44,051 nucleotides of DNA, from NCBI RefSeq assembly GCF_019599295.1, contig NZ_JAIEWN010000001.1, forward strand, positions 417,535 through 461,585, written 5' to 3'. This document shows positions 17,861 to 37,798 of this stretch, piece after piece. Position numbers and translations under genes: made by a program. Numbering within the stretch: position 1 is the stretch's first letter; every line of letters starts with the position of its first letter. The notes below the pieces were generated by a model. The model did not search any database, was not told where the DNA came from, and saw nothing but the letters and a program-made list of their open reading frames with translations. The DNA is from Oscillochloris sp. ZM17-4. Its GTDB lineage: Bacteria > Chloroflexota > Chloroflexia > Chloroflexales > Chloroflexaceae.

Positions 17861-17880
17861 GTAGGGCCGAAACATCCGCG
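17861..17880 (+). repeat. solo arm of the GTAGGGCCGAAGCAT family
   Basis: GTAGGGCCGAAACATCCGCG matches the left arm of the family at 2051, 37738 and elsewhere, but no complementary right arm is found within 100 bp. It lies between the SPFH gene stop (17929) and the dehydrogenase start (17828). It looks like a half-deleted or never-completed element. Confidence 0.7.
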
Positions 17881-30260: not shown

Positions 30261-30977
30261 GTGCGCCACCGTGCCTCCCTCCTTCTGATCATCCTGGCCG
30301 GGCTGCTGACCGCATGCGGCGGCGCGGCCCAGCCCACGCCCACCCCCACGCCCACCCCGCTCGAGATCAGCGCCCAGGTTGGCCGGGCCACCCAGGCCGC
30401 CGAGAGCGTCCACTTCGCGATCAGCCTGGCCGGAAAGCCGGTCTACGCCGACAGCGGCAACATCTTTGTGCTCAACAGCATGGAGGGCGACCTGAAGCGC
30501 CCCGACAGCGTGCTGGCCGTGCTCAGCGTCAGCGCCGGCGCGGGTGTGGCCGAGATCCGCACCGTTGCCCTGGATGGCAAGCAGTACATCACCAACCCGA
30601 TCACCCGCGAGTGGTCATGCCTGGCACCGGGCAGCGCCTTCAACCCGGCGGTGCTCTTCGACCCGCAGCAGGGCGTCGAGCACCTGCTCCAGACGGGCTT
30701 CGACGATGTGACCCTGGTGGGCGTCGAGGATCTGGCCGGCAGGCCGAGCTACCACCTGCGCGGCACGATCGCCGGCGACAAGCTTCAGCCGATCAGCATG
30801 GGCCTGCTCGGCGCCGGGCCGGCCGCCGTCGACCTCTGGGCCGACCAGGAGACGCTGCGGGCCAGCAAGCTGGTGCTGGTGGACAGCTCCAGCGACGCGA
30901 CCGCGCCGAGCACCTGGACGATCACCTTCAGCGGCTACGGCAAGACGATCGACGTGCGCGCGCCGGCGGCATGTTAA
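30261..30977 (+). CDS. LppX/LprAFG-type (LprG-like) lipoprotein
   Basis: A 238-residue lipoprotein. The signal peptide ends in LLTAC with Cys19, then a Pro-Thr repeat linker. The rest matches the LppX_LprAFG layout: VHFAISLAGKPVYAD, DGKQYITNPITREWSCL, GVEDLAGRPSYHLRG and VDLWADQETL. Members have a half-barrel with a hydrophobic pocket that carries triacylated lipids or lipoglycans. The GTG start has AAAGAGG six bases before it. It is followed by an Rv1410/P55-like MFS gene, the same order as the mycobacterial lprG-Rv1410c operon, in which the pair moves triacylglycerides out of the membrane. A lipid export role is inferred from that match. Confidence 0.85.
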   Translation: MRHRASLLLIILAGLLTACGGAAQPTPTPTPTPLEISAQVGRATQAAESVHFAISLAGKPVYADSGNIFVLNSMEGDLKRPDSVLAVLSVSAGAGVAEIRTVALDGKQYITNPITREWSCLAPGSAFNPAVLFDPQQGVEHLLQTGFDDVTLVGVEDLAGRPSYHLRGTIAGDKLQPISMGLLGAGPAAVDLWADQETLRASKLVLVDSSSDATAPSTWTITFSGYGKTIDVRAPAAC

Positions 30978-30978
30978 T

Positions 30979-31049
30979 GTAGGGCCGAAGCATTTGCGCG
31001 CCGATTCTCCCGCGCCGGCAAGCATCCACAGCAAATGCTTCGGCCCTAC
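30979..31049. repeat. GTAGGGCCGAAGCAT family, 33-nt spacer type
   Basis: The arms 30979-30997 and 31031-31049 (19 bp, GTAGGGCCGAAGCATTTGC and complement) are perfect; the spacer 30998-31030 is 33 nt and not palindromic. The element begins one base after the LprG stop. Its right arm contains an ATG (31035) in frame with the MFS gene. Confidence 0.93.
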
Positions 31050-31058
31050 GCAGTATGT

Positions 31059-32564
31059 ATGCAAAAACGCCCAAACCTCACCCTGGCCCTGATCAGCCTT
31101 GCCATCTTCATCGGCGCGGTCGACCTGACGGTGGTGAGCGCGGCTCTGCCGCGGGTGATGGTGGACATGCGGGTGGAGATTGGCAGCGACCTGGGCCGGG
31201 CGGCCTGGGTGGTGAGCGGCTACCTGCTGGCCTACACCGTGAGCATGACTTTTATGGGCCGGCTGTCGGACATCCTCGGGCGGCGCGATGTCTACCTGAT
31301 CTGCCTGGGCATCTTTATCGCCGGCTCGGCCCTGGCGGCGGCGGCGGGCAGTCTGGAGTGGCTGATTGTCGGGCGGGTGGTGCAGGCTTTCGGGGCCGGG
31401 GCGATGGTGCCGATCAGCATGGCCCTGGCGGGCGACATCTTCCCGCCCGAGCGGCGCGCGGCGGCCCTGGGCGTGATCGGCGCGGTGGACACGGCCGGCT
31501 GGATGGTCGGTCACCTCTACGGCGGCGTGCTGATGCGGGCCTTCGATAGCTGGCGCCTGCTGTTCTGGCTGAACCTGCCGATCGGCCTGCTGGCCCTCGC
31601 GCTCACCTGGTGGGCGCTGCGCGGGGTGCCGCAGCGGCGCGCGGCGGGCGGCTTCGACTGGCTGGGCGCGGCGCTGATCAGCGCGAGCCTGATCGCCTTC
31701 AACGTGGGGCTGTCCGCCGGCGGCGAGCTGCGCGAAGACTTCTACGGCGAGCGGGCTGGGCCGCCGGCCTACGCCCTGCCCCTGGTGCTGGCCGCCCTGG
31801 CCCTGCTCGCCGGCTTCGTCTGGGCCGAGCGGCGCAGCGCCCACCCGCTGATCGACCTGACGATCTTCTATGACCGGGGCGCCGCCGCCGCCTGCGCGAT
31901 CAACGTGATGGTCGGATTCGCCCTGGCCCTGGCGATCACGAACGTGCCGCTGTTCATCAACACCCGCCTGGCCCTCCAAAACCCCGCCGACGCCGACATC
32001 CTGCGCCGCGCGGCCTGGGAGTCGGGCTGGATGCTCTCGGCGCTGACCCTGACCATGGCCGCCGCCGCCGTGCCCGGCGGCTGGCTGGCCGGCCGCATCG
32101 GCCCGCGCGCCCCCGCCCTGGCCGGGCTGGCCCTGGCCCTGGCCGGCGTGCTGATGATGAGTCGCTGGGGCGCCGAGAGCGCCTACCTGACCATGGGGCT
32201 AGAGCTGGCCCTGGCCGGCCTCGGGCTCGGCCTGGTGATCTCGCCGGTGGCCGAGGAGGTGATCGCCGCCGCCGCCGAGGGCCGCCGCGGCAGCGCCTCG
32301 GCCCTGGTGATCGCCCTGCGCCTGGTGGGCATGACCGCTGGCGTGGCCGCGCTGACCCTCTACGGCGTGCCGCGTCAGGACGCCCTGCGCCGCGCCGGGG
32401 CGAGCAACCCGCTGGCCTCCTCCGACCCGGCCCGCTTCCTGATGGACGTGGCCTCCCAGGTGATCGGCGAGACCTTCCTGCTCGGCGCGGCCGCCCTGGC
32501 CCTGGCCCTGCTGGCGGCGCTGTGGATGCGGGGTGGCAACGATCATCCTCGCGGGCCTATGTAA
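31059..32564 (+). CDS. Rv1410/P55-like MFS transporter
   Basis: A 501-residue MFS protein resembling mycobacterial Rv1410c (P55). Matches include FIGAVDLTVVSAALPRVM (TM1), YLLAYTVSMTFMGRLSDILGRRDVYL (motif A), GRVVQAFGAGAMVPISMALAGDIFPPERRA, GLGLGLVISPVAEEVI and SALVIALRLVGMTAGVAALTLYG. Rv1410 works with LprG to extract triacylglycerides and confers apparent drug tolerance. Start choice: ATG at 31059 lies right before the conserved region; an in-frame ATG at 31035 inside the repeat arm would add MLRPYAVC. Neither has a good ribosome-binding site. The stop codon TAA is formed by the next repeat element. Confidence is high for MFS and fair for the P55 link. Confidence 0.85.
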   Translation: MQKRPNLTLALISLAIFIGAVDLTVVSAALPRVMVDMRVEIGSDLGRAAWVVSGYLLAYTVSMTFMGRLSDILGRRDVYLICLGIFIAGSALAAAAGSLEWLIVGRVVQAFGAGAMVPISMALAGDIFPPERRAAALGVIGAVDTAGWMVGHLYGGVLMRAFDSWRLLFWLNLPIGLLALALTWWALRGVPQRRAAGGFDWLGAALISASLIAFNVGLSAGGELREDFYGERAGPPAYALPLVLAALALLAGFVWAERRSAHPLIDLTIFYDRGAAAACAINVMVGFALALAITNVPLFINTRLALQNPADADILRRAAWESGWMLSALTLTMAAAAVPGGWLAGRIGPRAPALAGLALALAGVLMMSRWGAESAYLTMGLELALAGLGLGLVISPVAEEVIAAAAEGRRGSASALVIALRLVGMTAGVAALTLYGVPRQDALRRAGASNPLASSDPARFLMDVASQVIGETFLLGAAALALALLAALWMRGGNDHPRGPM

Positions 32565-32631
32565 GGCCGAAGCATTCGCCCCTGATCCCCCGCTCTGCGC
32601 CATGCACGCGGTGCGAATGCTTCGGCCCTAC
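32561..32631. repeat. GTAGGGCCGAAGCAT family, 33-nt spacer type, supplies a stop
   Basis: The arms 32561-32579 and 32613-32631 pair over 19 bp, with one mismatch at the fourth base from the end; the spacer 32580-32612 is again 33 nt. The left arm reads GTAAGG instead of GTAGGG, and its TAA (32562-32564) is the stop of the MFS gene. An ATG in the right arm (32617) is in frame with the PuhE-like gene. Confidence 0.92.
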
Positions 32632-32691
32632 AGCGTTGACACTGCTCCGCCCGCGTGTTACCATCCATGCAACCACGTTGTATCTAATGTC

Positions 32692-33477
32692 ATGGACACC
32701 CCTATGCCCCCTGAGCCGCCTGTCTGGGCGCAGACCTACCTGTACCCGCCGCTGATCGTGGTGGCGATCTGGGTGACTCTCACCGCCGGGGTGCTGGTGC
32801 TAAACCGGAAGGGCGAGCGGGCGACCCGCCTGGCGCTGCTGCTGAGCCTGCCCCTGCTCGGGCTGGCCCACTGGCAGATCGGGCTGACGCGGCACGACCT
32901 GAGCGCCCTCGGGGCCTACCGCGCCTTCGTGGCCGGCCTGATCATCTGGGCCTGGCACGAGATGGCCTTCTACAGCGGGCTGATCAGCGGCCCCTGGCGT
33001 CGCCCCTGCCCGCCCCACGCCCGCGGCGTCGTGCGCTTCGGCTACGCCCTCGGCACGCACCTCTACCACGAGCTGGCCTGCATCATCGAGCTCGCCCTGA
33101 TGCTGCACGTCCTCGGCGACGCGACCAACTGGGTGGGGCTGCTGGTCTTCTGCCTGAGCTGGGCGCTCCAGCACAGCGCCAAGCTCAACGTGCTGCTCGG
33201 CGTGCCCATCCTCCAGGTCGAGCTCTTCCCGCCCCACCTGCGCTACCTGGGCAGCTTCTGGGCGCGCCGCCCCGCCAGCGGCTTCTTCCTGCCGTCGGTC
33301 TCGGTCTCCACGCTCCTCGCCGGCCTGCTCTGGCTGACGGCCGGCTCCCTCGCCCCCGCGCCCGTCGCGGTGCGCCTGGCCCTGGTGGCCAGCGTCGTCA
33401 CCCTCGGGGCGCTTGAGCACTGGCTGCTCATCCTCCCCGCCCGCGCCACCTCTGCGGTCGGCCAGGTCGCCGAGTAG
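32692..33477 (+). CDS. PuhE-like photosynthetic complex assembly protein (DUF3623)
   Basis: A 261-residue protein with about seven membrane segments. It fits the family named putative photosynthetic complex assembly protein 2. Matching blocks are VAGLIIWAWHEMAFYSGLISGP, RRPCPPHARGVVRF, THLYHELACI, HSAKLNVLLGVPILQVELFPPHLRYL and GALEHWLLILP. In proteobacterial phototrophs the gene lies in the photosynthesis cluster and affects reaction-centre or light-harvesting assembly. Here the neighbours are a lipid exporter and transglutaminases, with no pigment genes within the window. The start (32692, or 32704) is uncertain because no ribosome-binding site is visible; the open frame runs back through the 32561 repeat. 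Confidence 0.82.
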   Translation: MDTPMPPEPPVWAQTYLYPPLIVVAIWVTLTAGVLVLNRKGERATRLALLLSLPLLGLAHWQIGLTRHDLSALGAYRAFVAGLIIWAWHEMAFYSGLISGPWRRPCPPHARGVVRFGYALGTHLYHELACIIELALMLHVLGDATNWVGLLVFCLSWALQHSAKLNVLLGVPILQVELFPPHLRYLGSFWARRPASGFFLPSVSVSTLLAGLLWLTAGSLAPAPVAVRLALVASVVTLGALEHWLLILPARATSAVGQVAE

Positions 33478-33484
33478 GCGCTGA

Positions 33485-34384
33485 TCACCTGCGGTAGGCG
33501 AGGTGGGTCAGCCCCGCGCGCTTGCTTGCGCTGAACTGGCCCTGGTAGGGCGCGCGGTAGCTGCCCGAGGTCGGCGACACGTCGCCGTAGTCGCGGCCGA
33601 TCGCCACGGTGATATAGGCCGGCGTGATCCGCCGGTGGTTCGTCGGGTCGAAGGCGACCGCGCGATAGCCGCCGGGGCCGGATATCAGGGCCTCGACCCA
33701 GGCGTGCGATCCGCCCTCGCCCAGCATATGCCCCGAGACATAGCGCGCCGGGATGCCCGCCGACCGGCAGATCGCCAGCATAATGTGCGCGTAGTCCTGG
33801 CAGAGCCCCTTGCCGATGGCCAGGGCCTCGGCGGCGGGTGTGCTCACCGTCGTCGCGCCGTAGCCGTAGCGCATCGCGCCGTAGACCCAGGTGCTGATCG
33901 CGTCGGCCAGTTCCTCCTCGCCGGCGTGGCGGCGCACCAGGTGGCGGGCTGTGTCGATGATCCGGGCGTCCGCCGTCGTCAGCGGCGTCGGCGTCAGGTA
34001 GCGCGCCACCTCCCCCGCCGCCACCGTCGGCCACGCCACCGCCGACACGTCGCGCTCGACCACCAGCCGCATCTCGAAGGCCAGATCTCCCGCCACCTCG
34101 GGGATGGCGACGGTGAAGACCCGGTTGCCGAAGGCGTCCGTGATCGCGCTCGTCACCGCGTCGGGCGCAGAGACCCGCAGATCATACGCGCGGACGTGCT
34201 GGTCGCCGTAGCGCTCGGGCGGGAAGACCACGAGCCGCTGGCGCAGGTCGCGGATCGCGCCGGGGTAGCGGTACTCGAAGCGCTGGTGCATCCAGTAGCG
34301 CGTCTCGCGCACCTCGCTCCACTCCACCTCGTGGTGGTTGATCAGGGCGATCTGGCTGGCCGCGCCGGTCATCAGCTCGTGCAT
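33485..34384 (-). CDS. transglutaminase-like cysteine protease family protein (first copy)
   Basis: A 299-residue cytosolic-looking protein. The bacterial transglutaminase N-terminal beta domain fills residues about 15-125 (YWMHQRFEYRYPGAIRDLRQRL). The catalytic core has Cys in GKGLCQDYAHIMLAICRSAGIPARYVSG, His in GGSHAWVEAL and Asp in AFDPTNHRRI, a full Cys-His-Asp triad. GGAGG lies ten bases before ATG 34384. It starts 5 bp after the stop of a second transglutaminase on the same strand, so the two are cotranscribed. Related gene pairs accompany MoxR and alpha-E proteins in other bacteria; MoxR and DUF58 are adjacent here. Substrate unknown. Confidence 0.88.
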   Translation of the reverse strand: MHELMTGAASQIALINHHEVEWSEVRETRYWMHQRFEYRYPGAIRDLRQRLVVFPPERYGDQHVRAYDLRVSAPDAVTSAITDAFGNRVFTVAIPEVAGDLAFEMRLVVERDVSAVAWPTVAAGEVARYLTPTPLTTADARIIDTARHLVRRHAGEEELADAISTWVYGAMRYGYGATTVSTPAAEALAIGKGLCQDYAHIMLAICRSAGIPARYVSGHMLGEGGSHAWVEALISGPGGYRAVAFDPTNHRRITPAYITVAIGRDYGDVSPTSGSYRAPYQGQFSASKRAGLTHLAYRR

Positions 34385-34389
34385 CGAGG

Positions 34390-35259
34390 TCACCCCTCCG
34401 CCTCGCGCGCCCAGAGCGGCACATCGAAGCGATCTCTGTCGTGAAGCTCGTCGGCCCAGACGGCCATCCCCGTGAGCTGGCTATCGCCGTAGCTGGTCAG
34501 GATGGCCGTGTCCACGGCGTCGCGGCCACGGGCGATCACCACCCGGCCGATCCGCGGCCGGTTATGGCGGGCGTCGAAGGTGCGCCAGGCCCCGCCGACA
34601 TAGGCCTCGAACCAGGCGTGAAAGTCCATCGGGTTGGGGTCGATCGGCACCCCGATGTCGGGCAGGTAGCCGCTGACATAGCGGGCCGGGATATTCATCG
34701 CCCGGCAGAACATCACCCCGACGTGGGCGAAGTCGCGGCAGACGCCCCGGCGGCTCATGTAGGCGTCGTAGCCCGTCGTATTCGGGGTGCTGTTGCCATA
34801 GCCGTAGGCGATAGTGGCGTGCGCCCAGTCGCAGATCGCCTGCACGCGCGCCCAGCCGTCCGGCGCGCCGCCAAACATGGCCCAGGCGTCGTTCAGCACC
34901 AGGTCCGACGGGCAGTAGCGGCTGGGCAGCGTGAAGGGCATCACGTCGTCGGGCAGCTGGTCGACAAACGCGCCGGGCAGGTAGGGGAAGGCCGGGTCGG
35001 GCGTCGCGGGAACCTCGACGATCGCGTCGTAGGAGAGCTGCATGGTGCCGGCCGGCGTCGTCCAGCGCCAGACCGTGTTGTTGAAGCTGTCGTGGAAGGT
35101 GTGGATCGGCACCTGCGGCGTGGTGATGTGGCGCTCATCGATCAGACGGTGGATGTCGAGCTGGCGCGGGCGCACCACGGACATCACCGGGGTCGGCGAT
35201 CCGGACTCGATCACAAAGGTGAAGCCGACACGGAGGAGCATGGCGCGCTGTGCTCTCAT
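34390..35259 (-). CDS. transglutaminase-like family protein (second copy)
   Basis: A 289-residue protein. The N-terminal part (LLRVGFTFVIES, QLSYDAIVEVP) is the beta domain. The catalytic Cys is in SRRGVCRDFAHVGVMFCRAMNIPARYVSG, the His in MDFHAWFEAYVGG and the Asp in TFDARHNRPRIGRV. It shares the fold and triad of the downstream copy but little overall sequence. Two in-frame starts are possible: 35259 (MRAQRAM) and 35241 (MLLRVGF), the second being closer to the family's usual start. A degenerate 7-bp repeat array lies right upstream where a ribosome-binding site would be expected, and none is seen. Confidence 0.86.
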   Translation of the reverse strand: MRAQRAMLLRVGFTFVIESGSPTPVMSVVRPRQLDIHRLIDERHITTPQVPIHTFHDSFNNTVWRWTTPAGTMQLSYDAIVEVPATPDPAFPYLPGAFVDQLPDDVMPFTLPSRYCPSDLVLNDAWAMFGGAPDGWARVQAICDWAHATIAYGYGNSTPNTTGYDAYMSRRGVCRDFAHVGVMFCRAMNIPARYVSGYLPDIGVPIDPNPMDFHAWFEAYVGGAWRTFDARHNRPRIGRVVIARGRDAVDTAILTSYGDSQLTGMAVWADELHDRDRFDVPLWAREAEG

Positions 35260-35265
35260 AGGTAG

Positions 35266-35293
35266 GGGGACAGGAGATAGGATACAGGGGACA
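35266..35293. repeat. degenerate 7-bp tandem repeat, 4 units
   Basis: GGGGACA, GGAGATA, GGATACA and GGGGACA in exact 7-bp steps. It begins six bases upstream of the second transglutaminase start, read on the minus strand. An older or mutated member of the GGGGACA arrays. Confidence 0.75.
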
Positions 35294-35299
35294 GGTTCA

Positions 35300-35340
35300 G
35301 ATAATAGAAAACGCTGGGCGCACACAGGCGCGCTCAGCGT
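35300..35340 (-). terminator. terminator-like hairpin after moxR
   Basis: The stem 35330-35340/35311-35321 is 11 bp with one G-U pair and an 8-nt loop, followed on the minus strand by TTTTCTATTAT. It lies about 45 bp past the MoxR stop. A minus-strand TATAAT at 35366-35371 lies upstream of it, so the hairpin could instead be in the leader of the transglutaminase mRNA and act as an attenuator. Confidence 0.55.
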
Positions 35341-35383
35341 CATTGCTTCCATGGGGTTATCGTCTATTATACACCATGCGAGC

Positions 35384-36331
<948 letters not shown>

Positions 36332-36345
36332 GCGCGCCTCGCTGT

Positions 36346-36429
36346 GATTGCAGATTGCAGATTGCAGATTTTAGATTGCCGCTCTATGATAGGTTAAAAT
36401 CTGCAATCTGCAATCTGCAATCTGCAATC
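36346..36429. repeat. inverted pair of 7-bp arrays (GATTGCA)n / (TGCAATC)n
   Basis: The left array is GATTGCA x3, GATTTTA, GATTGCC (36346-36380). The right array is TAAAATC followed by TGCAATC x4 (36395-36429). The segments 36346-36373 and 36395-36422 are perfectly complementary over 28 bp, including the variant GATTTTA unit. The array fills the whole spacer between the divergent MoxR and DUF58 starts and ends two bases before the DUF58 ATG. Confidence 0.95.
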
Positions 36430-36431
36430 CT

Positions 36432-37742
36432 ATGCTGCCCACCCCCCGCCTCTTCCTACTCCTCCTGCTCGCCGCGCCGCTCGTCGCCGGGGCGGCCATC
36501 GCGCGCCCGCTGCTCTGGCTGGCCCTGGCCTACCTGATCGTGGTGGCCGGCGTGCTGATCAGCGACCTGCTGCTCACGCCGGTGCCGGGGCAGATCGAGG
36601 TCGAGCGGATCAACGACGCCCGGCTCTCGCTGGGCGCCGAGAACCTGGTCACGGTGCTGATCTCCAACGCCAGCCCGCGCGCCCTGCGCTTCACCATGCG
36701 CGATGAGTCCCCCGATGAGATGCCCAGCGACGCGGCCTTCATCAGCGGCGATCTGCCGGCCTACGATGTGTTCTCCGCCCAGTACCGCCTGCGCCCGCTG
36801 CGGCGGGGCGACTACCAGTTCGGCGATGTGGTGCTGCGCTACCGGGGCCTGCTCGGCACCTTCGTGCGCCAGGCCCGCTACCCGACCGCCGCGCCGGTGC
36901 AGGTCTACCCGAATGTGCTGGAGCTGCGCAAGTACGACCTGCTGGCCCACAAGGGGCTGCTCTACGAGCAGGGGCTGCGGCCGGCGCGGGTCTATGGCCA
37001 GGGCGGTGAGTTCGCCCGCCTGCGCGAGTACGGCCCCGACGACGAGTACCGCCGGGTCAGCTGGAAGGCCACCGCCCGCCGGGGCCGGCCGATCGTGGCC
37101 GAGGTTGAGACCGAGCGCAGCCAGCACGTGATCTGCATGATCGACACCGGCCGCCTGATGGCCCCGCCGCTCGGCGAGATCGCCAAGCTCGACTATGTGA
37201 TCAACACGGCCCTGCTGCTCAGCTACGTGGCCGCGCTCAAGGGCGACCATGTCGGCCTGCTCACCTTCGCCGATCAGGTCGGGGCATTCCTGGCCCCGCA
37301 GCGCGGCAAGGCCCAGTTCCAGCGCATGATCGAGGCGCTCTACAATGTGCATGCCGAGGCGGTCGAGGCCGACCACGCCGTGGCCCTGGGCTACCTCCAG
37401 CGCAGGGTGCGCCGCCGCTCGCTGGTGGTGCTCTTCACCGACCTGGCCACCCCCGACGCGGCCCGGCCCCTGATCGCCTACCTGGCCCGGCTCAGCCGCC
37501 AGCACCTGATCGTCTGCGTGACGATCAGCGACCCGAATGTGAGCGCGGCGGTCGGCGCGCCCGCCCGCGACCTCACCGCCGCCTACACCCGCGCCGTCGC
37601 CGAGCAGCTGCGCGACGAGCGCCAGGCCATCCTCGACACCCTCAGCCGCAGCGGCGTGATCCCCGTCGATGTCCCCGCCGACAAGCTCACCATCTCCGTC
37701 GTCAACACCTACCTGCGCTTGAAGGCCCAGGGGCGGCTGTAG
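36432..37742 (+). CDS. DUF58 domain protein
   Basis: A 436-residue protein. Two N-terminal membrane helices (about 5-22 and 28-48) are followed by a beta-rich region (about 60-170) and the DUF58/VWA-like core: EFARLREYGPDDEYRRVSWKATARRGRPIVAEVETERSQHVICMIDTGRLM at about 197-247. DUF58 proteins work with MoxR ATPases in envelope functions. The start codon lies two bases after the heptamer array, with no visible ribosome-binding site. The stop codon TAG is the first TAG of a GTAGGGCC element, so the natural 3' end may have been replaced. Confidence 0.9.
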   Translation: MLPTPRLFLLLLLAAPLVAGAAIARPLLWLALAYLIVVAGVLISDLLLTPVPGQIEVERINDARLSLGAENLVTVLISNASPRALRFTMRDESPDEMPSDAAFISGDLPAYDVFSAQYRLRPLRRGDYQFGDVVLRYRGLLGTFVRQARYPTAAPVQVYPNVLELRKYDLLAHKGLLYEQGLRPARVYGQGGEFARLREYGPDDEYRRVSWKATARRGRPIVAEVETERSQHVICMIDTGRLMAPPLGEIAKLDYVINTALLLSYVAALKGDHVGLLTFADQVGAFLAPQRGKAQFQRMIEALYNVHAEAVEADHAVALGYLQRRVRRRSLVVLFTDLATPDAARPLIAYLARLSRQHLIVCVTISDPNVSAAVGAPARDLTAAYTRAVAEQLRDERQAILDTLSRSGVIPVDVPADKLTISVVNTYLRLKAQGRL

Positions 37743-37798
37743 GGCCGAAGCATCTGGGGTTGTCGCTCTGCGACAACCCCAGATGCTTCGGCCCTACA
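37738..37798. repeat. GTAGGGCCGAAGCAT-family palindrome, supplies a stop
   Basis: The arms 37738-37766 and 37770-37798 are perfectly complementary over 29 bp, loop TCT. The outer part TGTAGGGCCGAAGCAT is the family end; the core CTGGGGTTGTCGC is private. Its TAG (37740-37742) is the DUF58 stop codon. Confidence 0.95.

Follow-up and report, generated by a model that had tools for sequence, protein, structure and literature searches.

The window analyzed here, a 44,051-nucleotide stretch of the genome of Oscillochloris sp. ZM17-4 (source assembly of 6.69 Mb in 182 contigs, 98.6% complete), contains a lipoprotein gene followed by a gene for an MFS transporter. This is the gene order of LprG-Rv1410 in M. 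tuberculosis and of MHAS2167/2168 in M. hassiacum. LprG-Rv1410 moves fats to the outer envelope in tuberculosis bacteria; interest in it has centred on its role in mycobacterial virulence and drug tolerance, where it seals the mycomembrane. Chloroflexota are not known to have a mycolic-acid envelope, and the locus raises the question of whether its two genes are truly of the LprG-Rv1410 kind and, if so, what they would carry and to where. We consider it likely that they form a genuine lipid-export pair of the LprG-Rv1410 (P55) type, in a clade shared with the mycobacterial one, and that the cargo is probably something other than TAG made by WS/DGAT. By descent and fold the pair truly belongs to that kind; it is a variant of it by the register of its ion lock, and probably by its cargo as well.

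The first gene (30261..30977, plus strand) begins with GTG, has AGAGG upstream of this start, and encodes an LprG/LppX-type lipoprotein of 238 amino acids with a signal peptide and a lipobox, LTAC, whose cysteine is C19. A sequence-only reading of this DNA had assigned the protein to the LppX_LprAFG family, and the Pfam match to PF07161 (131.5 bits, cut-off 24) bears this out. Of the checks which that reading had proposed, the MFS phylogeny and the lipoprotein model, both described below, came out in its favor. The AF2 model (pLDDT 92.6) has a LolA-like half-barrel fold, and the top solved folds are LprF and M. tuberculosis LprG, which are tied at Z 23.0 and 23.1. TAG-bound LprG (4zra) gave Z 22.5, so at the level of fold the predicted structure points to LprG, including its lipid-bound form. 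LppX, which acts with MmpL7 in PDIM transport, is of the same LppX_LprAFG family and also has a LolA-like fold. However, it is a more distant match than LprG (Z 17.2), and its partner is an RND-type MmpL rather than an MFS. LolA itself matches the model at a Z of about 10.

The second gene encodes a 14-TM DHA2 MFS of the Rv1410/P55 type. Its open reading frame was listed as 31035-32564 (plus strand, 509 amino acids), yet the true start is probably ATG 31059 rather than ATG 31035, because the latter falls within a palindrome, in its 3' arm, and homology starts further in; the gene would then span 31059..32564. Residue numbers given below count from ATG 31035. The protein matches MFS_1 of Pfam at 2e-42, and its best PDB relative by phmmer is 8pnl, the structure of MHAS2168, which is the Rv1410 homologue of M. 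hassiacum (E 7.8e-50); the next PDB family is EmrB (E 2.9e-22). Searches with the AF2 model (pLDDT 92.8) agree, as Foldseek gave 8pnl at 2e-20 and VIA-align 2 placed 8pnl on top at Z 45.4, versus 38.8 for EfpA. The DHA2 fold itself is shared with EfpA, QacA and EmrB; EfpA and QacA were compared with the window MFS by fold and pairwise sequence only, and EmrB also by tree. TM11 (415-457, 43 residues) and TM12 (465-495, 31 residues) have in the model the lengths expected for long periplasmic extensions, like those of the mycobacterial transporters. The TM11-12 stretch is shorter than in most actinobacterial members, with 59 residues between R429 and the TM12 marker versus 54-74 in actinobacterial pairs. 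The length of TM11-TM12 was rejected as a mark of the clade, as the lengths overlap with those of other DHA2 proteins. A plasmid search with the MFS returned distant DHA2 proteins only; among the matches listed, identity was below 35% and the alignments covered just part of its length.

Trees were built from LprG-linked MFS of Chloroflexota and Actinomycetota, to which E. coli EmrB and other DHA2 proteins encoded in a subset of those genomes were added. A quick tree of 106 rows placed all 67 LprG-linked or orthologous MFS in one clade (SH-aLRT 100, stem 0.85). In a careful tree of 72 rows the LprG-linked MFS, both the mycobacterial ones and that of the window, were split from 26 other DHA2 exporters at 100/100, and this split was found in all 200 bootstrap trees examined. 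The window MFS, about 30% identical to its mycobacterial counterpart, clusters with the homologues of Rv1410 and away from DHA2 drug exporters. A placement among unrelated DHA2 drug exporters was what the sequence-only reading had named as its own refutation, and the tree decides this in favor of its claim. The proposal of a lipoprotein-then-MFS pair like lprG-Rv1410c stands: both genes are in place and the MFS belongs to the mycobacterial P55 clade. Unlinked MFS of the window's genus and family, and of a second family (f3), also fall within the LprG-linked clade. EmrB and the tested genomic DHA2 paralogues lie outside it and are without the TM5 acid discussed below. In four actinobacterial genomes with several DHA2 proteins each, it is always the LprG-linked copy that matches the window MFS best.

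The residues of the transporter carry the same signal, with one displacement. In MHAS2168 a salt bridge joins E157 of TM5 to R426 of TM11, and the TM5 acid is required for full activity of both Rv1410 and MHAS2168; this ion lock is kept in 17 mycobacteria and missing from 46 other MFS transporters (PMC10576003). In our alignment of 106 MFS an acid at the E157 position or one residue before it is present in 67/67 clade members and 0/39 other DHA2 proteins. Glutamate in the mycobacterial register is found in 42 of the 67; in the other 25, including the window MFS, D or E stands one position earlier and T comes next. The acid in the window is D152, one residue N-terminal of the E157 position, which is itself occupied by T153 (codons 31488..31493, plus strand). 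The TM11 arginine is R429 (codon 32319..32321, plus strand), which corresponds to R426 of MHAS2168 and R417 of Rv1410 and is invariant in a 60-member alignment of the clade. From the alignment we propose D152-R429 as a putative shifted ion-lock pair. One change on the tree is needed between the shifted and the mycobacterial register. D30, R114 and Q117 match the TM1 aspartate and the TM4 arginine and glutamine of Rv1410/P55 transporters (D35, R118, Q121), and the TM1 D-R pair is thereby shared with the mycobacterial system; D30 and R114 are kept in 67/67 clade members, and these residues are common in other DHA2 proteins too. The TM5 acid offers a simple sequence mark separating members of the family from drug exporters, and its two registers across the clade amount to a natural experiment on how a lipid-transporting MFS is coupled to protons.

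Occurrence outside Actinobacteria, which the sequence-only reading had presented as an oddity, is nothing unusual, as many Chloroflexota have the pair. PF07161 was found in 153 of 400 sampled Chloroflexota genomes (about 38%); of 41 near relatives, 25 have it. The MFS gene directly follows the lipoprotein gene on the same strand in 33 of the 40 Chloroflexota neighbourhoods fetched, which were mostly picked from top-scoring lipoprotein matches. Where tree loci have both genes, these lie on one strand in 57/57 and within 200 bases in 55/57. Among the 41 relatives a close MFS ortholog (at least 60% identity) is always accompanied by the lipoprotein, and this holds even for five genomes that have the genes on different contigs; elsewhere in the window's genus the two are likewise unlinked yet both present. 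Pairwise distances of the lipoproteins and of the MFS correlate at r 0.90 (permutation maximum 0.15), a value for which shared ancestry accounts in part. That this clade extends across Chloroflexota suggests that two genes can make up a lipid-export unit which functions without mycolic acids. A literature search without subscription papers found none naming LprG or LppX together with Chloroflexi.

Two further observations concern the history of the pair. Genomes G001, G003, G004, G006 and G012 have kept both lipoprotein and MFS but on separate contigs, and the pair has therefore come apart within this family. Two actinomycetotal loci, L145 (G533) and L148 (G451), have an MFS with the shifted lock and a lipoprotein whose closest match, leaving aside the one at the other locus, is the Chloroflexales type, which suggests a likely transfer of the whole pair between phyla as a unit.

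For transport, its direction, its cargo and its destination we infer the following course. The MFS would move an apolar lipid from the cytoplasmic membrane into its hydrophobic cavity, driven by proton exchange via D30/R114 of TM1 and the TM5-TM11 ion lock (D152-R429). The long periplasmic extensions of TM11 and TM12 would then hand the lipid to the lipid-anchored lipoprotein, which would take it up in its LolA-fold pocket and bring it to the outer envelope.

As to the cargo, the TAG of the mycobacterial pair, brought up in the sequence-only reading, does not carry over readily. Unlike in the LprG-Rv1410 system, WS/DGAT (PF03007) was absent by profile search from the window's genome, as well as from its genus and from the Chloroflexus-like genome tested. 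DAGAT (PF03982, DGAT2-type) had no match in the window's genome, and the matches in a few relatives were only weak and partial. The mycobacterial cargo is hence not evidently made, canonical TAG export is unsupported, and canonical TAG synthesis was rejected as support for a TAG cargo. The distribution of WS/DGAT does not track the pair either, as three relatives (G007, G009 and G024) have WS/DGAT without the lipoprotein. The pair could still export TAG as in mycobacteria if a TAG synthase existed outside the WS/DGAT and DGAT2 families, an alternative favored by the clade and fold held in common with the mycobacterial system and by the match of the lipoprotein model to 4zra; given the missing synthases and the WS/DGAT distribution, we regard it as improbable. 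Because the key residue is shifted and the gene for the usual fat-making enzyme is absent, a different lipid is probably exported. The cargo would then be not WS/DGAT-made TAG but another long-chain lipid of Chloroflexales, e.g. wax esters or glycolipids; wax esters are made by Chloroflexus and Roseiflexus (PMC4400912).

The destination depends on the envelope. The host had been described as probably monoderm, which is at odds with cryo-ET of Chloroflexales: a diderm-like envelope is seen in two of the three imaged (C. aggregans and Ca. Viridilinea), while R. castenholzii has no outer-membrane-like layer, and no Lol or LPS genes are reported (PMC7332563). In our searches Omp85/BamA was absent from 41/41 relatives, with control genomes that have outer membranes being positive. 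Genomes of family f4, which we take to be Roseiflexus-like, retain the pair. A strict tie of the pair to an outer-membrane-like layer was accordingly rejected, since an outer membrane cannot be the sole reason for the pair if f4 genomes keep it; that R. castenholzii is without such a layer, yet f4 keeps the pair, also counts against the lipid-export reading as a whole. The pair could nonetheless feed the diderm-like outer layer where there is one. Taken further, it might be the missing lipid supply for an outer layer built without Bam, Lol or LPS, with an apolar non-TAG cargo for which the proton lock has been shifted by one residue, a proposal that we put forward tentatively and think rather unlikely in its full form. 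The pair supplies testable genes for the long debate on the Chloroflexales envelope, which is diderm-like in cryo-ET and without Bam, Lol and LPS genes.

After the MFS gene lies a PuhE-type photosynthetic assembly gene (32533-33477; TIGR03055, 193.8 bits, cut-off 164), and a PuhE-like gene is beside the MFS in several relatives too. This neighbour, together with the resemblance of the lipoprotein to LolA (Z about 10), could be taken to mean that the lipoprotein is a LolA-like lipoprotein carrier or a chaperone for pigments or photosystem lipids, with the MFS as its loader. We find this very improbable, as LprG is much nearer than LolA (Z 23 versus 10), PuhE-type genes are found in many genomes without the pair, and PuhE is missing from f3 genomes, which have both genes of the pair family. 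PuhE-type genes (PF12291) occur in 30/41 relatives, whether or not these have the pair, and are often not adjacent to it, so PuhE was counted as neighbourhood only and a photosynthesis link via PuhE was rejected. Further downstream (33485-37742) two transglutaminase-like genes, a MoxR ATPase and a DUF58/VWA gene lie side by side, a common MoxR-type neighbourhood.

A reading of the MFS as an ordinary drug exporter of the DHA2 family with an LprG-like neighbour by chance is scarcely credible and largely refuted by the tree, for although profiles of EmrB/OtrB-type exporters match it and the DHA2 fold is common to both, its TIGR00711 (EmrB) score of 190.6 bits is below the cut-off of 230.2, and such a chance pairing was rejected on the tree (100/100), the ion-lock residues (TM5 acid 67/67 versus 0/39) and adjacency in two phyla.

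The lipid-export reading preferred here has one further point against it, as a palindrome forming a strong hairpin sits between the two genes, unlike in LprG-Rv1410. This dispersed palindrome of 71 bp (30979..31049) has 19-nt arms (GTAGGGCCGAAGCATTYGC) and an RNA hairpin of -43 kcal/mol; Rfam gave no match over the region. A second copy (32561..32631) is located directly behind the MFS gene and one of its arms supplies the MFS stop codon, so that the gene is flanked on both sides by copies of the repeat. Further copies in the window are at 2052-2110 and 37739-37797, and single arms are at 17861 and 38610. The window's genome contains 117 and 116 arms on its two strands versus 0-27 in sister species, which indicates that the palindrome was amplified in this genome. 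In the sister species G005 (L048) the gap between the lipoprotein and MFS genes is occupied by another inverted repeat, GCTGTCACCCTGAGCGAAGCGAAG..., and unrelated palindromes have therefore entered the same gap in two species.
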